NCBI GenBank assembly: GCA_017517665.1
Contig: JAFWYP010000007.1
Coordinates: forward strand, 26,615-90,614
Direction: 5' to 3'
From: Clostridia bacterium
GTDB lineage: Bacteria; Bacillota; Clostridia; Oscillospirales; Acutalibacteraceae
Length of the DNA: 64,000 nucleotides
In this document: positions 21,353-30,769 of the stretch, in pieces
How the letters are laid out: each line of letters begins with the position of its first letter
Position numbering within the stretch: the first letter of the stretch is position 1
The notes under the pieces: generated by a model
The model's input: only the letters and a program-made list of their open reading frames with translations
Database searches by the model: none
Told to the model about the DNA's origin: nothing
Translations under genes and position numbers: made by a program

Positions 21353-21429
21353 GCGCTGCTAGCTCAGCTGGATAGAGTGTTTGGCTACGAACCAAAAGGT
21401 CAGGGGTTCGAATCCCTTGCAGCGCGCCA
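21353..21429 (+). tRNA. tRNA-Arg (anticodon ACG)
   Basis: A full cloverleaf: acceptor GCGCTGC pairs with GCAGCGC (21419-21425). The anticodon stem TTTGG/CCAAA encloses the loop CTACGAA with anticodon ACG, the T arm has AGGGG-TTCGAAT-CCCTT, and CCA is encoded at 21427-21429. The 3' part from the anticodon loop onward is the insertion target of the mobile element and is repeated exactly at 30678-30723. The gene remains intact because the left junction restores the same bases. Confidence 0.97.
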
Positions 21430-21430
21430 T
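21385..21430 (+). repeat. attL core (46-bp direct repeat, tRNA-Arg 3' end)
   Basis: This 46-bp stretch, from the anticodon loop to one base past CCA, is identical to 30678-30723. Bases outside the match differ on both sides, so the limits are sharp. Integration by a tyrosine recombinase at a tRNA 3' end gives exactly this arrangement. Confidence 0.93.
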
Positions 21431-21431
21431 A

Positions 21432-21470
21432 CCGAAACTCCTTGTATATCAAGGAGTTTCGGCTTTTTTA
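21432..21470 (+). terminator. Element-borne terminator just past attL
   Basis: A perfect 13-bp stem, CCGAAACTCCTTG and CAAGGAGTTTCGG with a 5-base loop, is followed by CTTTTTTAT. It begins two bases after the att core, so it replaces the terminator of the tRNA gene that was displaced to the far end (30726-30769). Confidence 0.9.
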
Positions 21471-21503
21471 TGCCCTTTGTGAAAAGTCTGAAAAACGCTG
21501 TTT

Positions 21504-21523
21504 TTCTAACAAAATTCTAACAA
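21504..21523 (+). repeat. Probable integrase arm sites, left end
   Basis: TTCTAACAAAATTCTAACAA holds two copies of TTCTAACA with an 11-bp period. The same 20 bases occur at 30515-30534 near the right end. They lie 73 bp inside attL. Confidence 0.6.
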
Positions 21524-21542
21524 GAGGTGTTTCAGACTCAAG

Positions 21543-22715
21543 CTACACAACGTTTTTGAAGCCTATGGAATTTCCGATAGTGTTGCCGAGATCCTTTTTT
21601 CTCTTCATATCAAGGTGACCGTAAAACTTGGCGGTGATGTTTACATCGGAATGCCCGAGCCATTCAGAAACGTCATAAAGCTCACGACCCTCAGACAAAA
21701 GCAGGGCTGCGCAGCTATGACGCAAATCGTGAAATCTGATACGTTTCAAATCATTCTTTTTCAAAAGCTTCTTGAAATGTTTTGAAATATAGTCAGGGTC
21801 ATACAGTTTGCCGTTCGGCCATTTGAAGATATAATCGTTTTCAATATAGTCTTTACCGCAAGCGATTCTTTCTTCTTCTTCGCGGACTTTGAGCCATTTG
21901 AAGAATGCAATCATATCATCTGACAGTGGGTATGTTCTGTTGCTTGCATCGGTTTTGGTTGAATCCTTTGCAACAACCTTGTTGTTATACATCACAACCG
22001 TGTGTCTGACAATAAGCATTTTGTTTTCGAAGTCTATCGCATCCCAGCGAAGTCCGAGCACTTCGCTTCTGCGCATTCCGAAATAAATTGTCGCATAAAT
22101 CAGATGAAAGATTCTGTCGTCTTTAATCGCTTCCCAAACCTTCTGAACTTCTTCTGCACTGTAGAAATTAACCTTTTCGTGAGTAAGTGTCGGAAGTTTC
22201 ACGAATTCCAGACAATCGTCATAAATGATTTTCTGTTTTCTTGCCAGATTAAAAATCAACTTAAAAACAGTCATATGGCTTTTGAGTGTTTTGGGAGAAA
22301 GTCCTTCGCCGGTTATTTTGTTCCCGGATACCTTCTTCTCATCAATGTATTTCTGTATTGTTTCAAACGTAACCTCGTTCACCTTTATTTTGTGTTCTTC
22401 AAAATATGGAATGATATGAACTTTTACAATGCTTTCATAACCGCCATACGTGATTATATCAACTTCGTTTTTATACTCGTTGAGCCATTTCTGTGCCAAT
22501 TCATCAAGCGTAATGTCGGAAGGAACAAGCTTACTTTTTAATTCGTATTCCCTTTCGATCTCCTTTCTTTTTTCTTCGGCTTTTCTTTTGTTACCTTTGA
22601 TTTCAAGACCTGTTGCAATCCATTTGGGTTTTCTTTTACCGTTTTCGTCATAAGTGTCTACAACAATGTAATAGTGGTTGCCTTTGGTCTGTATTGTAGC
22701 GCCTATATAAATCAT
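21543..22715 (-). CDS. int: Tyrosine recombinase / integrase of the element
   Basis: A 390-residue integrase. The order is an N-terminal arm-binding part (IGATIQTKGNHYYIVVDTYD, like the AP2-type arm domain), a SAM-like core-binding domain from about 65 to 165, and a catalytic domain with the Arg of GMRRSEVLGLRW, HDLRHSCA, and GHSDVNITAKFYGH before the Tyr. It points toward attL, as usual. The ATG at 22715 directly touches the AAAGGAG site, which is unusually tight; no better start is seen, so translation may be regulated or use a nearby unusual codon. Confidence 0.93.
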   Translation of the reverse strand: MIYIGATIQTKGNHYYIVVDTYDENGKRKPKWIATGLEIKGNKRKAEEKRKEIEREYELKSKLVPSDITLDELAQKWLNEYKNEVDIITYGGYESIVKVHIIPYFEEHKIKVNEVTFETIQKYIDEKKVSGNKITGEGLSPKTLKSHMTVFKLIFNLARKQKIIYDDCLEFVKLPTLTHEKVNFYSAEEVQKVWEAIKDDRIFHLIYATIYFGMRRSEVLGLRWDAIDFENKMLIVRHTVVMYNNKVVAKDSTKTDASNRTYPLSDDMIAFFKWLKVREEEERIACGKDYIENDYIFKWPNGKLYDPDYISKHFKKLLKKNDLKRIRFHDLRHSCAALLLSEGRELYDVSEWLGHSDVNITAKFYGHLDMKRKKDLGNTIGNSIGFKNVV

Positions 22716-22722
22716 CTCCTTT

Positions 22723-23065
22723 GAGCGGTTTATACAACGCCGTCCTTTTGGCGGAGTGACTTGATCCGAACTCCATACGGTTTTGAAAGGCATATTTTCG
22801 CCACATCTGCGTTAAAAACCTTTGAAATAGCCCCGTATTCCTGCAGATTTTTGCCTTGCTGTGACAAAAATCTGCTCTTCCAAAACTGCGAAGCACCGAA
22901 AAGGTCGCAGTTTTGATTCAGCGGAGCGTTTCTTTTATGAAACCATACTGACGTATGGTGAAGAAAAAAACGCTTCGATGGGTCGGAAATACGACCTTTA
23001 CGGCGTATTTAGTTCAAATCAAGTCACTCTGACTTAAGAATAGCGCGCAAACCGCTCTGTATAAA
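22723..23065 (-). ncRNA. Candidate structured leader RNA ahead of the integrase
   Basis: No ORF fits this gap. On the minus strand, a 9-bp helix (23049-23057 with 22723-22731) and a 12-bp helix (23018-23029 with 22754-22765) close a region with three more hairpins: 22844-22874 (10 bp), 22881-22915 (10 bp) and 22924-22975, with a smaller one at 22981-22996. The 8 bases 23058-23065 can instead pair with 22729-22736, which overlaps the 9-bp arm, so the two closing helices exclude each other. The integrase ribosome site starts right after the 3' arm. The role as RNA is inferred; the repeats could also serve as DNA sites. Confidence 0.4.
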
Positions 23066-23086
23066 GTAAATTAATTGTGAATTTTC

Positions 23087-23115
23087 GGCTGAACGAAGAA
23101 AATCTCCGTTCAGCC
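23087..23115 (-). terminator. Hairpin after the excisionase-like gene
   Basis: Perfect 9-bp arms GGCTGAACG (23087-23095) and CGTTCAGCC (23107-23115) lie seven bases past the stop. The minus-strand tail is only moderately T-rich, so it may end some transcripts and let others run into the integrase leader. Confidence 0.55.
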
Positions 23116-23121
23116 ATTTTG

Positions 23122-23292
23122 TTATTTTGTGCCGAGTGAATCAATAAGTTTGCTTTTCACTACGCGGAGATTTTTGCCCACCTTAAGGACAAAAATCGTT
23201 CTGTTATTGATGAGCTTGTAAATGGTTTTTTCACAAACTCCGAGAAGCTCTGCCGTTTCCTTAACGGTCAGAAGTTCTTTTTCTTCAAACAT
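23122..23292 (-). CDS. xis: Excisionase-like helix-turn-helix protein
   Basis: A 56-residue protein with the MerR/Xis-type winged helix used by excisionases: LLTVKETAELLGVCEKTIY forms the helix-turn-helix, followed by a wing with VLKVGKNLRVVKSKL. In related elements such a protein bends the att ends and favours excision. The ATG at 23292 has a GAGG ribosome site. It lies between relaxase and integrase on the same strand. A simple regulator of the integrase gene is an alternative role. Confidence 0.85.
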   Translation of the reverse strand: MFEEKELLTVKETAELLGVCEKTIYKLINNRTIFVLKVGKNLRVVKSKLIDSLGTK

Positions 23293-23335
23293 CGGGTATA
23301 CCTCATAAAATTATTTTTTGAGGATTTTCTATCTG

Positions 23336-23350
23336 AACTCATAATGAGTT
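23336..23350 (-). promoter_or_regulatory. Palindromic operator-like site upstream of xis
   Basis: AACTCATAATGAGTT is a perfect 15-bp palindrome around a central A, 44 bases ahead of the xis start. A second inverted pair, CCTCA (23301-23305) and TGAGG (23319-23323), encloses the region that includes the ribosome site. Confidence 0.35.
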
Positions 23351-23442
23351 GTTTTCATTTTCATCCTGAGAAAGCGAGCTTTCGTTTAACTAAAACGGGT
23401 GAAATCAAATCGTTCCCGTATCCTCAGGTTTAGTGCGAAATT

Positions 23443-24504
23443 TTAAGGTTCATAATCAATGGATAACGGATCTTTTTTGCTATCGTATCCATCGTTTGGT
23501 GTGTTGTAATATGTTGTTTGATGATTGTGTGTTTCGCTGAATGCTTTTTCTTCAGCGATTTTTTCTTTAATAAGTGTTTCATATTTCTCAAACATAGGAT
23601 CGAATTCGTGATCAATGCTAACCTTTACAAAAGCATCATAAAAATCAATAGCATCATTTATGTATTTGCTTGTGTCTTTGGTTTCGGCAATTTTCTTTTC
23701 AATTTCTGCAATTTCTGTTTCATCTTTTGCTTTTTGTTTTAAAAGCAAACAATGTTCATTGCTCAAAGCTGTAATTTGTTTCTGAGCAGTGGCTTTCTGT
23801 GCTTCAAGTTCGGCAAGCTTTTGTGTCAAAATATATGCTTCTTTTTCAAGATGTTTCTTGCCTTTGCCTGCATCGGGATGATGAACCTCTATACCTCTCT
23901 GTCTGCAGAGATCATCAAGATAAGCTCTTTCTCTGTCAGTCCATTGAGTCAGTTCTGTCTCGCCGTATTTACCGTTTTTGTTTTGAAAACCCATTTCTTT
24001 AAGCGCCTTGGTATGAGAACACTGTATGCTCATACCACGTGAATTCTGAAAAGAGATTGGTATATAGTCTATATGACAATGTGGAGCTCCCCTCTCATCG
24101 TTATGGTAAAAAGCTCCAATCAGAATGAGATTGGGATTTCTCTTGCTCCATTCGTCAACAATCTGCTTACAAATTTCTTTACAAACACTGGCGGGCGGAT
24201 GGGTATCCTTGTCACCGATTGTTACAATGACTTCATAGCACGGATTCTGCTGCTTGGAATTTTTTACTTTTCGATAATAGTCATCAATGATACGGCGCGA
24301 ATCCGATTGACGGGCATTATATTCTTTTACAGCTTCATCAAAGATTCTCTTGTAAGCCTTTCTGACATCTTCGTCAACCCACACTATATATTCGCCGTTG
24401 GGGTCAATGTGCTTTTCTTTTGCAACGCATTTGGGGTCACGACGATTGTGCCCTTGTGCAACTGCTGTGCCTTTATGAAATGTGGTCGTTATGGGGTTTG
24501 CCAT
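23443..24504 (-). CDS. mob: Mob_Pre-type relaxase (MOBV-like)
   Basis: A 353-residue protein. The metal site is YHNDERGAPHCHIDYIP near residues 137-153, the H-x-DE-x2-PH-x-H pattern of plasmid recombination/mobilization enzymes. The C-terminal third, from about 200, is a predicted coiled coil (KKHLEKEAYILTQKLAELE and following). It would nick oriT and pilot the DNA strand into a recipient. The ATG at 24504 has AAAGGAGA upstream; the frame remains open 18 codons further without a ribosome site. Confidence 0.9.
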   Translation of the reverse strand: MANPITTTFHKGTAVAQGHNRRDPKCVAKEKHIDPNGEYIVWVDEDVRKAYKRIFDEAVKEYNARQSDSRRIIDDYYRKVKNSKQQNPCYEVIVTIGDKDTHPPASVCKEICKQIVDEWSKRNPNLILIGAFYHNDERGAPHCHIDYIPISFQNSRGMSIQCSHTKALKEMGFQNKNGKYGETELTQWTDRERAYLDDLCRQRGIEVHHPDAGKGKKHLEKEAYILTQKLAELEAQKATAQKQITALSNEHCLLLKQKAKDETEIAEIEKKIAETKDTSKYINDAIDFYDAFVKVSIDHEFDPMFEKYETLIKEKIAEEKAFSETHNHQTTYYNTPNDGYDSKKDPLSIDYEP

Positions 24505-24573
24505 GGGTTCTCCTTTCTTTGATTTGCCTGCAATGCAATCGTTTTTCTTCGCTTGCATTGTTTGAGGTTTTGA

Positions 24574-24643
24574 TTTCTTATGCCGAAAAACATAGCATAA
24601 GAAATGTTATCGCTCTGTCTGATTAATTGTTCAGACCGATAAC
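24574..24643 (-). other. Candidate oriT (two inverted repeats upstream of relaxase)
   Basis: Two hairpins lie side by side 70 bp before the relaxase start: TTTCTTATGC/GCATAAGAAA (perfect 10 bp, 24574-24583 and 24595-24604) and GTTATCGCTCTG/CAGACCGATAAC (12 bp, one mismatch, 24606-24617 and 24632-24643). MOBV nick sites usually sit in such repeats just ahead of the gene. No known nick consensus was recognised. Confidence 0.45.
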
Positions 24644-24650
24644 TGTAAAA

Positions 24651-24954
24651 CCTCCGGCACAATGCTTCGCTCAGAAGCACTCTTGCGTTTGCACGTCAAA
24701 TCAATAACTCAATAGTGGTTGCGCGCAGCACAACCCCATTTCGCTCCTTATGCCGGAGGGCAGAGGCTGTCTGCGGACACCCTGACGCCGACTGATATTC
24801 AGACTCAGAATTATCTGTCGGCTATAAAAATCTCGTTTTATACGCTCAAGCGGGAATAGCGAAAAACTCGATTTCTGCAAAAACTCAGCCTGACCTCCCC
24901 TGCGTTTTTGCAGAACACTTTTGCTTTGAAAAGCGGAAATTCAAAAAGTGTTCT
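24651..24954. repeat. Hairpin-rich non-coding block, possible transfer or replication origin
   Basis: No convincing gene. A 9-bp long-range pair (24651-24659 with 24751-24759) is followed by GCCGAC/GTCGGC (24787, 24817), a perfect 12-bp pair TTCTGCAAAAAC/GTTTTTGCAGAA (24873-24884, 24904-24915) and an 11-bp pair AGAACACTTTT/AAAAGTGTTCT (24912-24922, 24944-24954). The last two share four bases, so only one can form at a time. Confidence 0.45.
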
Positions 24955-25111
24955 TTGCTAAAGTATGTCACATTACCTACCCTCTAAAAATTCAAGGTTG
25001 ATTTTCGGGTGTGAATGTACTCATGAAATTAACTTTTATCAGATGAAAAAAGATAGCAAAAACCTCCGAAGTGTTAAGATTAAATCAAAACATTTCGGAG
25101 GGTTGTTGAAT

Positions 25112-25213
25112 ATGTACAAATTACAGGGTGAAAATTTGACTTGCAGAGCATGTGCCTGCGGTAGACTTTTACAAGTCAAAGTGCTATACTATAATTATAA
25201 ACAAGAAAAATGA
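25112..25213 (+). CDS. Possible 33-residue Cys-containing peptide
   Basis: A short ORF with a good CGGAGGG site eight bases before its ATG. The peptide starts MYKLQGENL and has three Cys in LTCRACACGR. The ribosome site is one arm of an 8-bp inverted repeat (25063-25070 with 25094-25101). The 3' half of the ORF also contains the promoter assigned to the SIR2 gene, so it may be a leader or not translated at all. Confidence 0.3.
   Translation: MYKLQGENLTCRACACGRLLQVKVLYYNYKQEK
25168..25195 (+). promoter_or_regulatory. Promoter of the SIR2 - LRR cargo genes
   Basis: TTTACA and TATAAT are separated by 16 bases. GACTT-TTAC-AAGTC forms a small inverted repeat across the -35 box, a possible operator. 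The predicted start is about 50 bases ahead of the SIR2 ATG. Confidence 0.6.
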
Positions 25214-25254
25214 TTGTTAAATAAAGTCTACTTTTTTTAACAGGATGTGATTTA

Positions 25255-26152
25255 ATGCAGGATGTTTTGTTTCTCGGTAACGGGATAAACAGAGCGTTTA
25301 ACGGCGATTCGTGGAATAATCTTGTTGAGAAGATTTCCAAGGAATATGATCAAGCCTGACCGCTGATGACGTTGAACACTTGCCGTTTCCGATGAAGGTT
25401 GTTGCTTTGTCAGGTGACAGAGTTGACAAGGCTATGCAATTTATATCGAAGGATATGAATTTTGTTAATTCTGACAGGCAGTCTGAATTGATAAGACGAA
25501 TCTTTGATTTGCCGATTGAGAATATTATAACGGCGAATTACACTTTTGAACTTGAACAGATATCGGGAATCAAACCATCTCTTTACAGTTACAGAAAGAT
25601 TCGCAAATTTACCAAAGGCTGTAAGGGCAAAGAAGATAAATTCGGTTTGTTCAGATATTATCAGCCTGAGAATTCCGATAAGAAGATATGGCATATTCAC
25701 GGCGACATAACAGCTCCGTCAACGGTAATAATGGGCAATTATTATTACGGAAAGTTGCTCAGCGAAATTCAGACATATACATCAGGGTTTATCAAACGAT
25801 ATAAAACGTTAAAAAACAAGGTTTGGAAATAACGGAACAAAGCTGGGTTGATTCGTTTCTGGCGAAGAACGTGCATATTCTCGGATTCGGGCTTGATTTA
25901 AGTGAAGCTGATATCTGGTGGCTGATTTGCTGCAAAAAGCGAAACTTTCCTGATACGAAAATATATTTTTATGTTCCGAAGGATAAAAAACATCCGCTCG
26001 GCAAGGCAAAAGAGGCTTTGCTTCGGTCATATAACGTTGTTATCGTTGACGATATTCCTTTTGATGGGGAATATGAACGTTTTTATCATAAAGCAATAGA
26101 AAGAATAGAATCTGAAATTCAGAACGGAGGAAAAACAAATGAAAATGTTTAA
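25255..26152 (+). pseudogene. SIR2-family protein, interrupted by two frameshifts
   Basis: Three reading frames together give one SIR2-like protein: LFLGNGINRAFNGDSWNNL at the start (frame stops at 25359), then LPFPMKVVALSG with IITANYTFELEQ and IWHIHGDI (to 25832), then SWVDSFLAKNVHILGFGLDL with DIWWLICCKKR (to 26152). Adding one A near 25353 (CAAGCC to CAAAGCC) and one near 25817 (ACAAGG to ACAAAGG) yields a continuous 299-residue ORF. These motifs define the bacterial SIR2_2-type NAD-binding fold; several relatives are NADases in anti-phage defence, but this branch is uncharacterised. Whether the breaks are real or sequencing errors in short A runs is open. Confidence 0.8.
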
Positions 26153-29100
26153 GAAGATTCTTGCGACAGTTTTGTGTGTTATCATGGTGTTCGGTTCGGC
26201 GCCGCTTTCGGGATTGGTTGGGCTTGACTTGCCCGAATTCAATCTCTTTACACCCAAGGCTTCTGCGGCAACTTACAGCGGTACTTGCGGTGATAATCTT
26301 ACATGGACTCTTGATACGAATACAGGTCGACTTATTATAAATGGTTCAGGTGAAATGTATGATTGGATATCGGGTTCATCCGTTCCGTGGTATTCATATC
26401 GGTCATATATCGAAAAAGTAAGAATCAGTAACAGCGTAACAAGCATAGGCGAATATGCGTTCTACGACTGCTCTGGTCTCACAAGCATAACAATTCCCGA
26501 CAGCGTAACAAGCATAGGCAAATATGCGTTCTACTACTGCTCTGGTCTCTCAAGAATAACAATCCCAGACGGCGTAACAAGCATAGGCGTTTCTGCGTTC
26601 TATGGATGCACCAAACTCACAAGCATAACAATTCCCGACGGCGTAACAAGCATAGGCGGTTCTGCGTTCTGGGACTGCTATGGTCTCACAAGCATAACAA
26701 TTCCCGACAGTGTAACAAGCATAGGCGGTTCTGCGTTCTATGGATGCACCAAACTCACAAGCATAACAATTCCCGACAGTGTAACAAGCATAGGTTATCG
26801 TGCGTTCTTCAGATGCACCGGTCTCACAAGAATAACAATCGGTAGTGGCGTAACAAGCATTGGCGAAAGAGCGTTCTATGGATGCACCGGTCTCACAAGC
26901 ATAACAATTCCCGACAGTGTAACAAGCATAGGTTATCTTGCGTTCTCAAATTGCGACAGTTTGGAAAAAATATATTATGCAGGGACGCCCGAACAATGGG
27001 AAGCTATTTCTGTTGGTGAAAATAATGACAGTTTGCCGAATATAATTATTTTTGAGTGCAACTCAGAAAGACCTTATTACCAAAAAGGAAGATGTGGCGA
27101 AAATCTTGAATGGATTTTATATGCTGATGGCGAACTTGTAATCAATGGTACAGGTGGTATGAAAGATTGGTCTTCAAAGACAAGTACTCCTTGGTATAAG
27201 TGGATCTCACAAATAAAATCTGTAAGTGTTGACAATGGTGTAACAAGCATAGGTAAATATGCGTTCGATGGTTGCACCGATCTCACGAGCATAACAATTC
27301 CCGACAGCGTAACAAGCATAGGCGAATCTGCGTTCTATGGATGCACCGGTCTCAAAGATGTTTATTATAACGGAAGCGGCAGGGACTGGGAGAAAATTGA
27401 AATTAGGAGTAATAATTCTCTATTAAGCCAAGCAACAAAACATTATACATATTATTATATTACTTGGATTACAGCCAGTGAAGCAATCGAGGAAAAGGTT
27501 AAGGTTGGTGATCGCATAATTCTGCCTGCCGAGCCTCAAAAAGAAGGATATTCCTTTGTCGGCTGGGATAAGGTTGTTCCTGAAACGATGCCTGCAAACA
27601 ATCTTGAATTTGTTGCGGAATGGTCGATTAATTCTCATACTGTAACTTGGATTGTTGATGGAAATGAAACTGTTGATACATACAATTACGGCGACACAAT
27701 CGTTAAACCTGCTGATCCCGAGAAGGTTGGTTATACATTCACAGATTGGGGTGCTGAAATTTCCACAACAGTTCCGGATGAAGATTTAGTATTCACTGCA
27801 ACGTGGCAGGCGAAGGAATACAATGTAACATGGAATGTTGATGGCGAAATATCAACAGATACTTATTATTTTGATGATGCAATCACTGCTCCCACTCCTG
27901 AAAAAGACGGATATTTCTTCATCGGTTGGGATAAAGTTGTTCCCGATACAATGCCTGCAGAATCTCTTGAGTTTGTTGCTCAATGGAGCAAGGTTGAATA
28001 TGAATTTGAGTTTGATGGAAATGGCATAATTATCACAGCGGCAAAGGACGCAAGCGGTGACATTGAAATACCTGCAATAATCAACGGCTATCCTGTAATT
28101 GCTATTGATGAATGTGCGTTTGCAGGTAGTGATATCACAAGCGTTACAATTTTCGAAGGTGTTGAGTCAATCGGTTTGTTTGCTTTTGCTTACTGTGATA
28201 AGCTTGAAACAGTAAACATCCCCTCAAGCGTAACCGAAATAGATTATGGTGCATTCTCGGGTTGCTCAAATATTGAAACAATCAATATTTCCGCTGATAA
28301 CAACAACTTCGTAACAGATGAATACGGCGTTGTTTATACAGAGGGATTCATTGAACTTGTTTATGCTCCTGCAAAATCTGTGGGCGAAGCGTATGCTATG
28401 CGCTCAACTGCAACTTATATCTATCCGTTCGCATTCTCGGATTGCTCTGATTTTGCTCTCACAATTTCAGATAATCTTTCTGACGAGGATGCAGATGAAT
28501 TCCTGCTTTATATTTCTGTAAATGAGTTTATTACAAACGACAGCTGCATTAATTTCAAAGCGGTTGACGGAGTGCTTTATAACAAGGCGGTAACAAAACT
28601 TTATAAATATCCGGTTGACAACAAGCGTGAATTCTATGCTCTTCCGAGCAGCGTAACAACAATTGCTGATGCAACTGCTTTTGTTTGCGTAGATACGGCA
28701 TTTTATCTTTTTGTTGATGAAGACATTATTATAGCAGGTGTCGATGAGATTTTCAAAACACCTGAAAATCTTACTCTTCATATTGATTACGCAAGCGAAT
28801 TTACAGTTGATCATTTTACTATGACACTTTTGGGCCCTGCTCACGTTTGTGTAGGTGATATCACAAAAGCGGATGCTGACGCACTTAACGAAAATGCAGA
28901 GGAAATCATTGCTGAGCAGGAAGAAATTTGGGATGAGATTGAGCCTGAACTCACTCCCGGCACAGATGAATATGATTTCATGAAGGCTTATGTTTTGGGT
29001 TATATTGATATGATAACCAACTATGTTGATTGCGAAAACAATCATACCCGCCTTCACAAATATGCGGCAGTTGTTGAAAAAGATGAAGGCAACTGCACAA

Positions 29101-30377
29101 ACGATGGATGCACAAATTACAAGTGCGTATGTGGCTATGAGTTTACAGAAGCAATCACAGCACCCGGTCATAATTACGTTGCTGTTGTAACTGCTCCCAC
29201 TTGCACAAAAGAAGGTTATACAACTCATACTTGCTCTGCTTGCGGCGATACATACGTTAATGATGAAGTTGTTAAACTCGGGCACAACTATGACACAGTT
29301 GTAACCGACCCCACTTGCACAAAAGAAGGTTATACAACTTATACTTGCTCTGCTTGCGGCGATACATACGTTAATGATGAAGTGTCTGCAACAGGTCACT
29401 CACATGAATCTAAAGTAACCAAAGAGCCGACTTGCACAACAACCGGCATAAAAACATTTACCTGCCATTGCGGTGATAGCTATACAGAGATTATCAAGGC
29501 CAACGGTCACACCAAGGGAGAATGGGAATATATCGGCGGTAAGGAATATGCAAAGAACTGCACGGTGTGCGGAGATAAGCTTGAAAGCAAAATTGTTACT
29601 GTAAATATGATGATCAATGGTGAGAATGTGAACAAAACTCAGATTCTCAACAAGTCGACAGCAACAGTTGTCGCAACGGTTACAGATAATTTTACAAATA
29701 ATCTTGTGTTTGCTTCATCTGATGACAGCATAGTTTCGATTGACGCAAACGGCAACATAATTGCAAATGATGTTGGCAAGGCAACCGTTACCGTTACAAT
29801 CAGCGGCACTGCAATTTCCGATAGCATTGAGGTTGAAGTTTTGCCTCGCGATTTTACTATCACTTGGAATGTAAACGGTAAGGTGACAAAGCAAACAATT
29901 AAGGAATATGCATCTATTACTCCGAACATTGATACAAAACGTCCCGGATACAAGTTTGTAGGATGGGATTCTGAAGTTCCTTCTACCATGCCTGCCAAAA
30001 ACCTTTCATTTACTGCAAAATTCGAACTCTCGTTCAAGATGTCAATCCGCAAACCTTCGACCACAACCATCAGCTACGGCGATAGCATTATTCTCCACGC
30101 AGATATGAACGAAGCCCTTCCGAGCGGCTGGACAGTCAAGTGGACGGCGGACAACGGCAACTTCTCTTATTCGGCTAACGGCGAAACCTGCACTATCACT
30201 CCGAGCAAGAGCGGTGACACAACCTTTACCGCAACGGTTTATGACGAAAACGGAAACGAAATCAGCAAAGACACTCAGACAATGAAGTCAAAAGCAGGTT
30301 TCTTTGATAAGTTTGCCGCTTTCTTCAGAAAACTGTTTGGTATGACGAAGATTATTCAGCAGTCAATCAATTTCTAA
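26139..30377 (+). CDS. Giant secreted leucine-rich-repeat (BspA-like) surface protein
   Basis: A 1412-residue protein with a signal peptide (1 to about 43, ending ASAA). Eight 23-residue LRR_5 repeats (VTSIG-x2-AF-x2-C) run from about 100 to 285, with two more near 367-410. Next come InlB-like beta-grasp repeats (GYSFVGWDKVVP, GYTFTDWG, GYFFIGWDKVVP) to about 610, another LRR-like stretch, and Cys-rich units of the type TCTKEGYTTHTCSACGDTY (about 1010-1105). A Big_2-like Ig domain and one more GYKFVGWD repeat follow. The end has the amphipathic motif GFFDKFAAFFRKLFG. No LPXTG anchor. The ATG lies 14 bases inside the end of the SIR2 gene, so the two are coupled. BspA-like proteins bind host matrix or other cells; the partner is unknown. 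Confidence 0.92.
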   Translation: MKMFKKILATVLCVIMVFGSAPLSGLVGLDLPEFNLFTPKASAATYSGTCGDNLTWTLDTNTGRLIINGSGEMYDWISGSSVPWYSYRSYIEKVRISNSVTSIGEYAFYDCSGLTSITIPDSVTSIGKYAFYYCSGLSRITIPDGVTSIGVSAFYGCTKLTSITIPDGVTSIGGSAFWDCYGLTSITIPDSVTSIGGSAFYGCTKLTSITIPDSVTSIGYRAFFRCTGLTRITIGSGVTSIGERAFYGCTGLTSITIPDSVTSIGYLAFSNCDSLEKIYYAGTPEQWEAISVGENNDSLPNIIIFECNSERPYYQKGRCGENLEWILYADGELVINGTGGMKDWSSKTSTPWYKWISQIKSVSVDNGVTSIGKYAFDGCTDLTSITIPDSVTSIGESAFYGCTGLKDVYYNGSGRDWEKIEIRSNNSLLSQATKHYTYYYITWITASEAIEEKVKVGDRIILPAEPQKEGYSFVGWDKVVPETMPANNLEFVAEWSINSHTVTWIVDGNETVDTYNYGDTIVKPADPEKVGYTFTDWGAEISTTVPDEDLVFTATWQAKEYNVTWNVDGEISTDTYYFDDAITAPTPEKDGYFFIGWDKVVPDTMPAESLEFVAQWSKVEYEFEFDGNGIIITAAKDASGDIEIPAIINGYPVIAIDECAFAGSDITSVTIFEGVESIGLFAFAYCDKLETVNIPSSVTEIDYGAFSGCSNIETINISADNNNFVTDEYGVVYTEGFIELVYAPAKSVGEAYAMRSTATYIYPFAFSDCSDFALTISDNLSDEDADEFLLYISVNEFITNDSCINFKAVDGVLYNKAVTKLYKYPVDNKREFYALPSSVTTIADATAFVCVDTAFYLFVDEDIIIAGVDEIFKTPENLTLHIDYASEFTVDHFTMTLLGPAHVCVGDITKADADALNENAEEIIAEQEEIWDEIEPELTPGTDEYDFMKAYVLGYIDMITNYVDCENNHTRLHKYAAVVEKDEGNCTNDGCTNYKCVCGYEFTEAITAPGHNYVAVVTAPTCTKEGYTTHTCSACGDTYVNDEVVKLGHNYDTVVTDPTCTKEGYTTYTCSACGDTYVNDEVSATGHSHESKVTKEPTCTTTGIKTFTCHCGDSYTEIIKANGHTKGEWEYIGGKEYAKNCTVCGDKLESKIVTVNMMINGENVNKTQILNKSTATVVATVTDNFTNNLVFASSDDSIVSIDANGNIIANDVGKATVTVTISGTAISDSIEVEVLPRDFTITWNVNGKVTKQTIKEYASITPNIDTKRPGYKFVGWDSEVPSTMPAKNLSFTAKFELSFKMSIRKPSTTTISYGDSIILHADMNEALPSGWTVKWTADNGNFSYSANGETCTITPSKSGDTTFTATVYDENGNEISKDTQTMKSKAGFFDKFAAFFRKLFGMTKIIQQSINF
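26430..26985 (+). repeat. Eight 69-bp tandem repeats inside the LRR gene
   Basis: Units begin with a GTAACAAGCATAGG core and include GCGTTCTATGG and CTCACAAGCATAACAATTCC. Several are nearly identical at the base level, so the number can change by slippage or recombination without breaking the frame (69 = 23 codons). Two further copies are at 27236-27373. Confidence 0.85.
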
Positions 30378-30397
30378 AGTTTATACCTCAATCAACA

Positions 30398-30463
30398 AAG
30401 AGCTCACCTTCGGGTGGGCTCTTTTGAAATATGAGAAAAGCCCGTCAAAAGACGAGCTTTTTT
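30398..30463 (+). terminator. Two tandem terminators after the LRR gene
   Basis: Hairpin one has AAGAGCTCACC, loop TTCG and GGTGGGCTCTTTT (30398-30425). Hairpin two has AAAAGCCCGTC, loop AAAA and GACGAGCTTTTTT (30436-30463). Both have one central mismatch and T tails. Confidence 0.85.
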
Positions 30464-30514
30464 GATGAATTATATTCTGCAGGAAATCCTGCGCCAAAAG
30501 TACGGCGTTGTTTG

Positions 30515-30534
30515 TTCTAACAAAATTCTAACAA
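30515..30534 (+). repeat. Probable integrase arm sites, right end
   Basis: The same 20 bases as at 21504-21523, in the same direction, 143 bp inside the right att core. A small palindrome TGGAAT-GCA-ATTCCA (30649-30663) lies between it and the core. Confidence 0.6.
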
Positions 30535-30677
30535 ACGGACGAAAAATGAGTTTTTGCATGAATCCAAGCATATCAACACTTGCAGAAATTGACCTTTTGG
30601 TTTCTTGAACTGAACTTTTGTCAGATAATTCTGCAAGGTTCCACCAAATGGAATGCAATTCCACTATCTGAGTGTCC

Positions 30678-30723
30678 CTACGAACCAAAAGGTCAGGGGT
30701 TCGAATCCCTTGCAGCGCGCCAT
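30678..30723 (+). repeat. attR core (46-bp copy of the tRNA-Arg 3' end)
   Basis: Identical to 21385-21430. It starts in the anticodon loop, so no tRNA can form here; the 5' half is absent (upstream bases do not match). Confidence 0.93.
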
Positions 30724-30725
30724 CT

Positions 30726-30769
30726 CGAGTGTTCATAACGGATTCAAGTTGTGAACACTCGATTTTTTG
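30726..30769 (+). terminator. Original chromosomal terminator of tRNA-Arg
   Basis: Arms CGAGTGTTCA (30726-30735) and TGAACACTCG (30752-30761), then ATTTTTTGT. It sits three bases past attR, the place where the tRNA transcript ended before insertion. Confidence 0.75.

Follow-up and report, generated by a model that had tools for sequence, protein, structure and literature searches.

Several described groups of mobile elements resemble the element reported here. The Firmicutes integrative mobilizable elements (IMEs) with a MobV relaxase, IMESag-rpsI, Tn4451 and Tn6215, likewise have their own recombinase and MobV relaxase and no T4SS, and use the pore of a helper, as we propose for the present element; they differ in host group, target and cargo (PMC5704250). 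Streptococcal IMEs at tRNA 3' ends share the tyrosine integrase and have tRNA-arg among their targets (PMC5704250 and PMC5357655). In the streptococcal set (PMC5357655), MobV and a tyrosine integrase are found only together with MobT, and MobV alone is found with a serine integrase once, whereas here MobV occurs without MobT and is paired with a tyrosine integrase. The Mob_Pre proteins of pMV158 and of Enterococcus plasmids belong to the same Pfam family as the relaxase described below; the best plasmid matches are from Enterococcus faecalis, at 35.8% identity over 62% of the query, but coverage of the query stays under 80% in all 238 plasmid records matched. Conjugative transposons of the Tn916/Tn1549 type share an Xis that scores above the Tn916-Xis cut-off and an integrase that matches the solved 'Int protein' structures 6emy/6emz (Tn1549 Int) and 3nkh; the present element differs from them in that no T4SS genes were seen in it and its target is a fixed tRNA. 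In the accessible portions of the literature searched, no description of an LRR-bearing IME of such kind was found.

The window analysed here is a stretch of 64,000 nucleotides, part of contig C7 of a 2.77-Mb draft genome (G000) of 68 contigs. An element of ~9.3 kb (21385-30723) lies at the end of a tRNA-Arg(ACG) gene, the sole tRNA called by ARAGORN in the window; an Rfam scan of the window found nothing beyond the tRNA. Direct repeats were searched across the whole window with a 16-nt exact seed and a length of at least 30 nt, which gave four families, the att pair and three within the LRR gene. The att pair forms a 51-nt repeat (21385-21435 and 30678-30728) that is 96% identical, the first 46 nt being perfect, and this fixes the limits of the element exactly. 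The sequence-only reading had proposed an IME with these 46-bp repeats at both limits in tRNA-Arg, an integrase beside attL, an Xis-like gene and a Mob_Pre-type relaxase, and each of these is borne out by the features in Table 1. Its statement that conjugation genes are absent likewise holds among ORFs of at least 60 aa and in a Pfam scan of the seven main frames or pieces. Its interpretation of the cargo did not stand, as described below.

Table 1. Features of the element and its target (window coordinates).
Feature	Position	Strand	Basis
tRNA-Arg(ACG), integration target, kept whole by the element	21353..21429	+	ARAGORN, Rfam tRNA match
attL, 3' part of the tRNA gene	21385..21430	+	no mismatch to 30678-30723
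End repeat, left copy; putative integrase arm site	21504..21523	+	exact 20-bp copy of 30515-30534
Tyrosine integrase, 416 aa	21543..22793	-	PF00589 82.9 bits, PF14659 39.4 bits, both above cut-off
Excisionase-like helix-turn-helix protein, Tn916-Xis type, about 56-59 aa	23122..23301	-	HTH_17, Tn916-Xis and TIGR01764 above cut-off
Mob_Pre (MOBV-type) relaxase, 353 aa (371 aa from start 24558)	23443..24504	-	PF01076 33.5 bits, cut-off 25.5
Candidate oriT core with hairpin	24702..24762	.	conserved beside relaxases; more inverted repeats upstream from ~24570
AbiH/SIR2-like pseudogene, three frames	25255..26152	+	ORF pieces, Pfam, comparison with G044
BspA-type LRR protein, 1412 aa	26139..30377	+	LRR_5 338.5 bits (cut-off 27.7), Flg_new 73.1 bits
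End repeat, right copy; putative integrase arm site	30515..30534	+	exact 20-bp copy of 21504-21523
attR, repeat of the tRNA 3' part, 46 bp	30678..30723	+	repeat identity; G044 homology stops at 30722

The integrase carries the R, HxxR, H and Y motifs intact, which are the catalytic motifs of such enzymes. The 20-bp direct repeat inside each end of the element is present in two exact copies in the window, against 0.02 expected with up to 3 mismatches. It was found with at most 1 mismatch in nine of ten related loci searched, the tenth, L102, beginning 26 nt before its att. The relaxase has the HNxR and HxDExxPHxH motifs of the MOBV (Mob_Pre) family, at residues 19 and 134, and the phmmer search found no relaxase of known structure. 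Five loci, with relaxases at 51-97% identity, conserve the block at 24702-24762 beside the relaxase gene, and its hairpin arms co-vary (GGTTG/CAACC in the window, GGTTATG/CATAACC in locus L028), suggesting that this block may be the oriT. Elsewhere in the same genome, a separate set of T4SS genes lies on contig C48. Its products include an ATPase resembling VirB4 (P-loop_TraG), a protein resembling VirB6 (TrbL_2), a coupling protein of the VirD4 type and an NlpC/P60 protein. Contig C18 has a second coupling-protein gene; these are candidates for the helper. The genome also has a second relaxase-like gene, 32% identical, at L117 (G000:C37:20000-29095), adjoining a 576-aa ORF that resembles a serine recombinase by eye; L117 is possibly another mobilizable element.

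We consider the element very probably to be an IME that works as follows. The tyrosine integrase and the Xis-like protein would excise the element as a circle by recombining the two 46-bp copies of the tRNA end, with the 20-bp repeats probably serving as arm-type sites for the integrase. The relaxase would nick the oriT adjoining its gene, and the single strand would exit through the pore of another conjugative element, for which the T4SS gene set above is one candidate. In the recipient, the circle would insert at the tRNA-Arg end and leave the tRNA whole.

The left flank and tRNA were used as a query against 45 genomes of the same genus, 41 of which matched, and stretches from 15 of these 41 were compared with the window (the window itself excluded). 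The empty tRNA-Arg site that the sequence-only reading had suggested looking for was found in four of the 15 (G017, G024, G023 and G022), where the tRNA joins the window's own post-attR sequence directly, starting TCTCGAGTGTTCATAACGG; G022 matches the right flank of the window up to 35000, the end of the query. The larger flanks are present without the element in G041 as well, but with a different terminator. An att copy lies beside part of the IME family in eight of the 15 (G044, G011, G006, G008, G002, G036, G033 and G035), the stretches compared for G036, G033 and G035 excluding the tRNA itself. The remaining two, G020 and G015, have no part of the element at the site: in G020 the tRNA is followed by a mini-element, described below, and then by the window's flank, and in G015 the flank is different.

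Two further arrangements were observed at this site. In G011, its two edges are on separate contigs (L058 and L099; contigs C8 and C14), and each runs on the element side into genes that resemble housekeeping genes by eye; either the chromosome is rearranged at this point or the assembly is faulty. At L097 (G002:C37:1-9000), a different ~5.9-kb element with integrase-like ORFs occupies the same tRNA; next come an att copy, what remains of the IME's integrase end, and the window's right flank.

The sequence-only reading had also suggested comparing the cargo in related genomes, and a near-identical copy with the same cargo was found in G044, a goat rectum MAG of another species of the genus. 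This genome carries window positions 23105-30722 as two blocks, 98.5% and 97.4% identical, and the match stops at attR, beyond which the DNA is different. Whereas the element reaches 97-98%, identity between the window and G044 is 78% for the left-flank PAP2 gene. The integrase end of G044 is on a separate contig, beside its tRNA-Arg, and is 92% identical over 568 bp; window positions 21852-23105 are absent from the assembly. Since the copy is split on two contigs, lacks 21852-23105 and has an integrase end that is 92% rather than 98% identical, it may be a mosaic. With this caveat and that of the split assembly, recent horizontal spread between species would be the simplest reading of the alignments. 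The same spot being either empty or filled with a nearly identical copy in related species argues that the element is real and was recently mobile. It is improbable that we are looking at a former IME that has become an immobile, decaying genomic island in this host: one cargo gene is dead and some relatives keep parts only (G008 and G002 an integrase end, G035 right ends), but the integrase, Xis and relaxase frames are open and retain their motifs, the att copies are identical to each other, and another species holds the 97-98% copy.

Parts of the element are also found in other combinations. G011 has, at the same site, integrase and Xis parts (91% and 88% identical); the homology stops at 23438, shortly ahead of the relaxase stop codon, and other genes lie beyond. 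In G006, the relaxase/oriT block (23287-25104) is present at 86% identity (L061:3904-7016, contig C1), the relaxase itself being 88% identical, and there the relaxase adjoins a 560-aa large serine recombinase, not a tyrosine integrase, together with an LRR gene (42% over 311 aa). Another contig of G006 carries the integrase (97%) in tandem with a different element at its tRNA-Arg. By these homologies, the element is built of modules that can be exchanged, as the integrase end, the relaxase/oriT block and the right end each occur apart.

A relaxase 51% identical to that of the window was observed at L028:3-8234 (SVOW01000013.1) with a conserved oriT-like block; a 2744-aa NRPS-like frame nearby (condensation and AMP-binding domains) is open at the locus edge.

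The proteins of the element also bear on whether it could be a phage satellite, transduced rather than conjugated. Its integrase and Xis match phage families, its relaxase matches phrog_31146 (E 2.6e-40) and its LRR protein matches phrog_18805 and phrog_35892 (all three of unknown function), so similar proteins occur in phages. However, no phage structural or packaging gene is among the frames scanned, a pattern scan of IMG/VR contigs found no close relative of the relaxase, and a conserved oriT-like block adjoins the relaxase. A phage satellite thus finds little support, and we regard it as very unlikely.

In the cargo, the sequence-only reading saw an unusual pairing of a SIR2-family defence protein with a host-facing surface protein. 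The supposed SIR2-family protein is not one ORF. It is an AbiH/SIR2-like gene in three pieces (25225-25359, 25350-25832 and 25805-26152), each in a different frame, of which the middle piece alone matches in Pfam, below the cut-offs (AbiH 24.9 bits, cut-off 30.9; SIR2_2 23.0 bits, cut-off 24.5). Weak LmuA matches were seen in the first and middle pieces and a weak ThsA match in the middle piece. The gene is broken in G044 too: that copy lacks the first break of the window and has a different stop, while the last frame break is common to both. Shared and private breaks in two separately assembled genomes argue for a pseudogene, not a sequencing error. Homologues with open frames occur elsewhere, in G102 (309 aa, 34% identical over the matched part), G104 (310 aa, 29%) and G004 (340 aa, 27%). 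A defence island in which a SIR2/AbiH protein protects against phage alongside the surface protein, as the weak AbiH, SIR2_2, LmuA and ThsA matches might invite, is rejected with near certainty, since both known copies have a broken frame, one break being shared and one private to each, and open frames are those of the 27-34% identical homologues. Of the two cargo genes, one is intact and the other dead, and the proposed pairing is unsupported.

The intact gene encodes the BspA-type LRR protein, 1412 aa in the window and 1374 aa in G044, with Listeria-Bacteroides repeats, a Big_2 match below the cut-off and, by eye, a signal-peptide-like start. Pfam shows no anchor domain in the protein, and a role facing an animal host is unsupported. 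Between the window and G044, dN/dS is 0.46 for the LRR gene, from 18.3 synonymous and 30.7 non-synonymous changes. The relaxase, with 3 synonymous and 13 non-synonymous changes, has a dN/dS of 1.04, a value that gives no sign of constraint; these change counts are too small for firm selection claims. An in-frame duplication (29162-29269 and 29276-29383; 114-nt spacing, 88% identity) was observed in the LRR gene, and the 38 aa by which the G044 protein is shorter would be consistent with one duplicated unit fewer.

LRR_5 is so common in the genus, with 62 matches (matches, not genes) in G000, 42 in G044, 59 in G006, 75 in G011 and 18 in G022, that LRR cargo is unremarkable here. The middle part of the protein was found in four of 148 genomes, and closely only in G000 itself and G044; of 458 distinct frames of at least 250 aa compared, only the two LRR copies carry its C-terminal motif. 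LRR genes adjoin the relaxase in G006 (L061) and L027 as well, but L028 has its NRPS-like gene there. Relaxases 37-44% identical are present at seven loci in six genomes of the genus, and LRR matches lie nearby at one of the seven (L114, G027). A lineage of relaxase-plus-LRR carriers stays suggestive, because LRR domains are common and the cases few.

The tRNA-Arg end is also the site of the mini-elements, gene-less structured units of ~190 bp that relatives carry at the 3' ends of various tRNA genes. The unit in G020 (L103:2756-2944) is a clean insertion relative to the empty allele, with 189 bp inserted after tRNA-Arg and followed by empty-site sequence. Its parts are a terminator, the tRNA T-arm/acceptor strand in inverted copy, a structured core and the final 16 nt of the tRNA in direct copy. 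Further units were seen at L107:443-590 and L102:114-256, with matches in L193-L232. A consensus fold from 14 copies has 18 pairs, five of them with changes on both sides. The covariance model (E <= 0.001) matched 29 of 148 relatives, many of the matches being short, and found no mini-element in the window's own genome. Over 43 loci it gave 46 full-length matches, which include all 14 training copies, these matching by construction.

A same-strand tRNA (Ser, Arg, Ala, Gln, Thr, Pro or Tyr) lies at most 130 nt upstream in 26 of the 46; no tRNA was called upstream of the other 20, some of which are near contig edges or in tandem arrays. Of the 26 units, 22, at 180-199 bp, end with at least 15 of 17 matches to the last 17 nt of their own tRNA, and four do not. 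Compared with the ends of the other tRNAs in the set, the unit's end matched its own tRNA better in 23 of 26, with one tie and two lower. In 15 of 26 units, the inverted copy agrees with the unit's own tRNA at 9 or more of 10 nt; it fits that tRNA better than the other tRNAs in 20, equally well in two and less well in four. Since the inverted and direct tRNA-end copies can close a stem, the mini-elements might move as folded single strands.

In G033 and G035, a mini-element adjoins an end of the IME family. A direct link to the IME integrase is unproven, as the window's genome has no mini-element and none of the IME's 20-bp end repeats was seen inside the units. A class-wide scan, covering the best eight candidates per genome, found a mini-element at E <= 1e-6 in 0 of 391 genomes, which is weak evidence of absence. 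In Rfam, the non-tRNA matches of one copy were all far below gathering scores, and the literature searched, in its accessible portions, contains no description of such units. It is possible, and we suggest it tentatively, that a second, apparently undescribed class of mobile DNA uses the same tRNA-Arg end in relatives, as satellites moved by tRNA-directed recombinases.

The element at this locus is an IME of ordinary, known type with clean boundaries; within one gut Clostridia genus, its site is empty in some genomes and a second species carries a near-identical copy. It shows module exchange and corrects a tempting story of defence plus surface protein. The mini-elements at its tRNA may prove more important than this IME.
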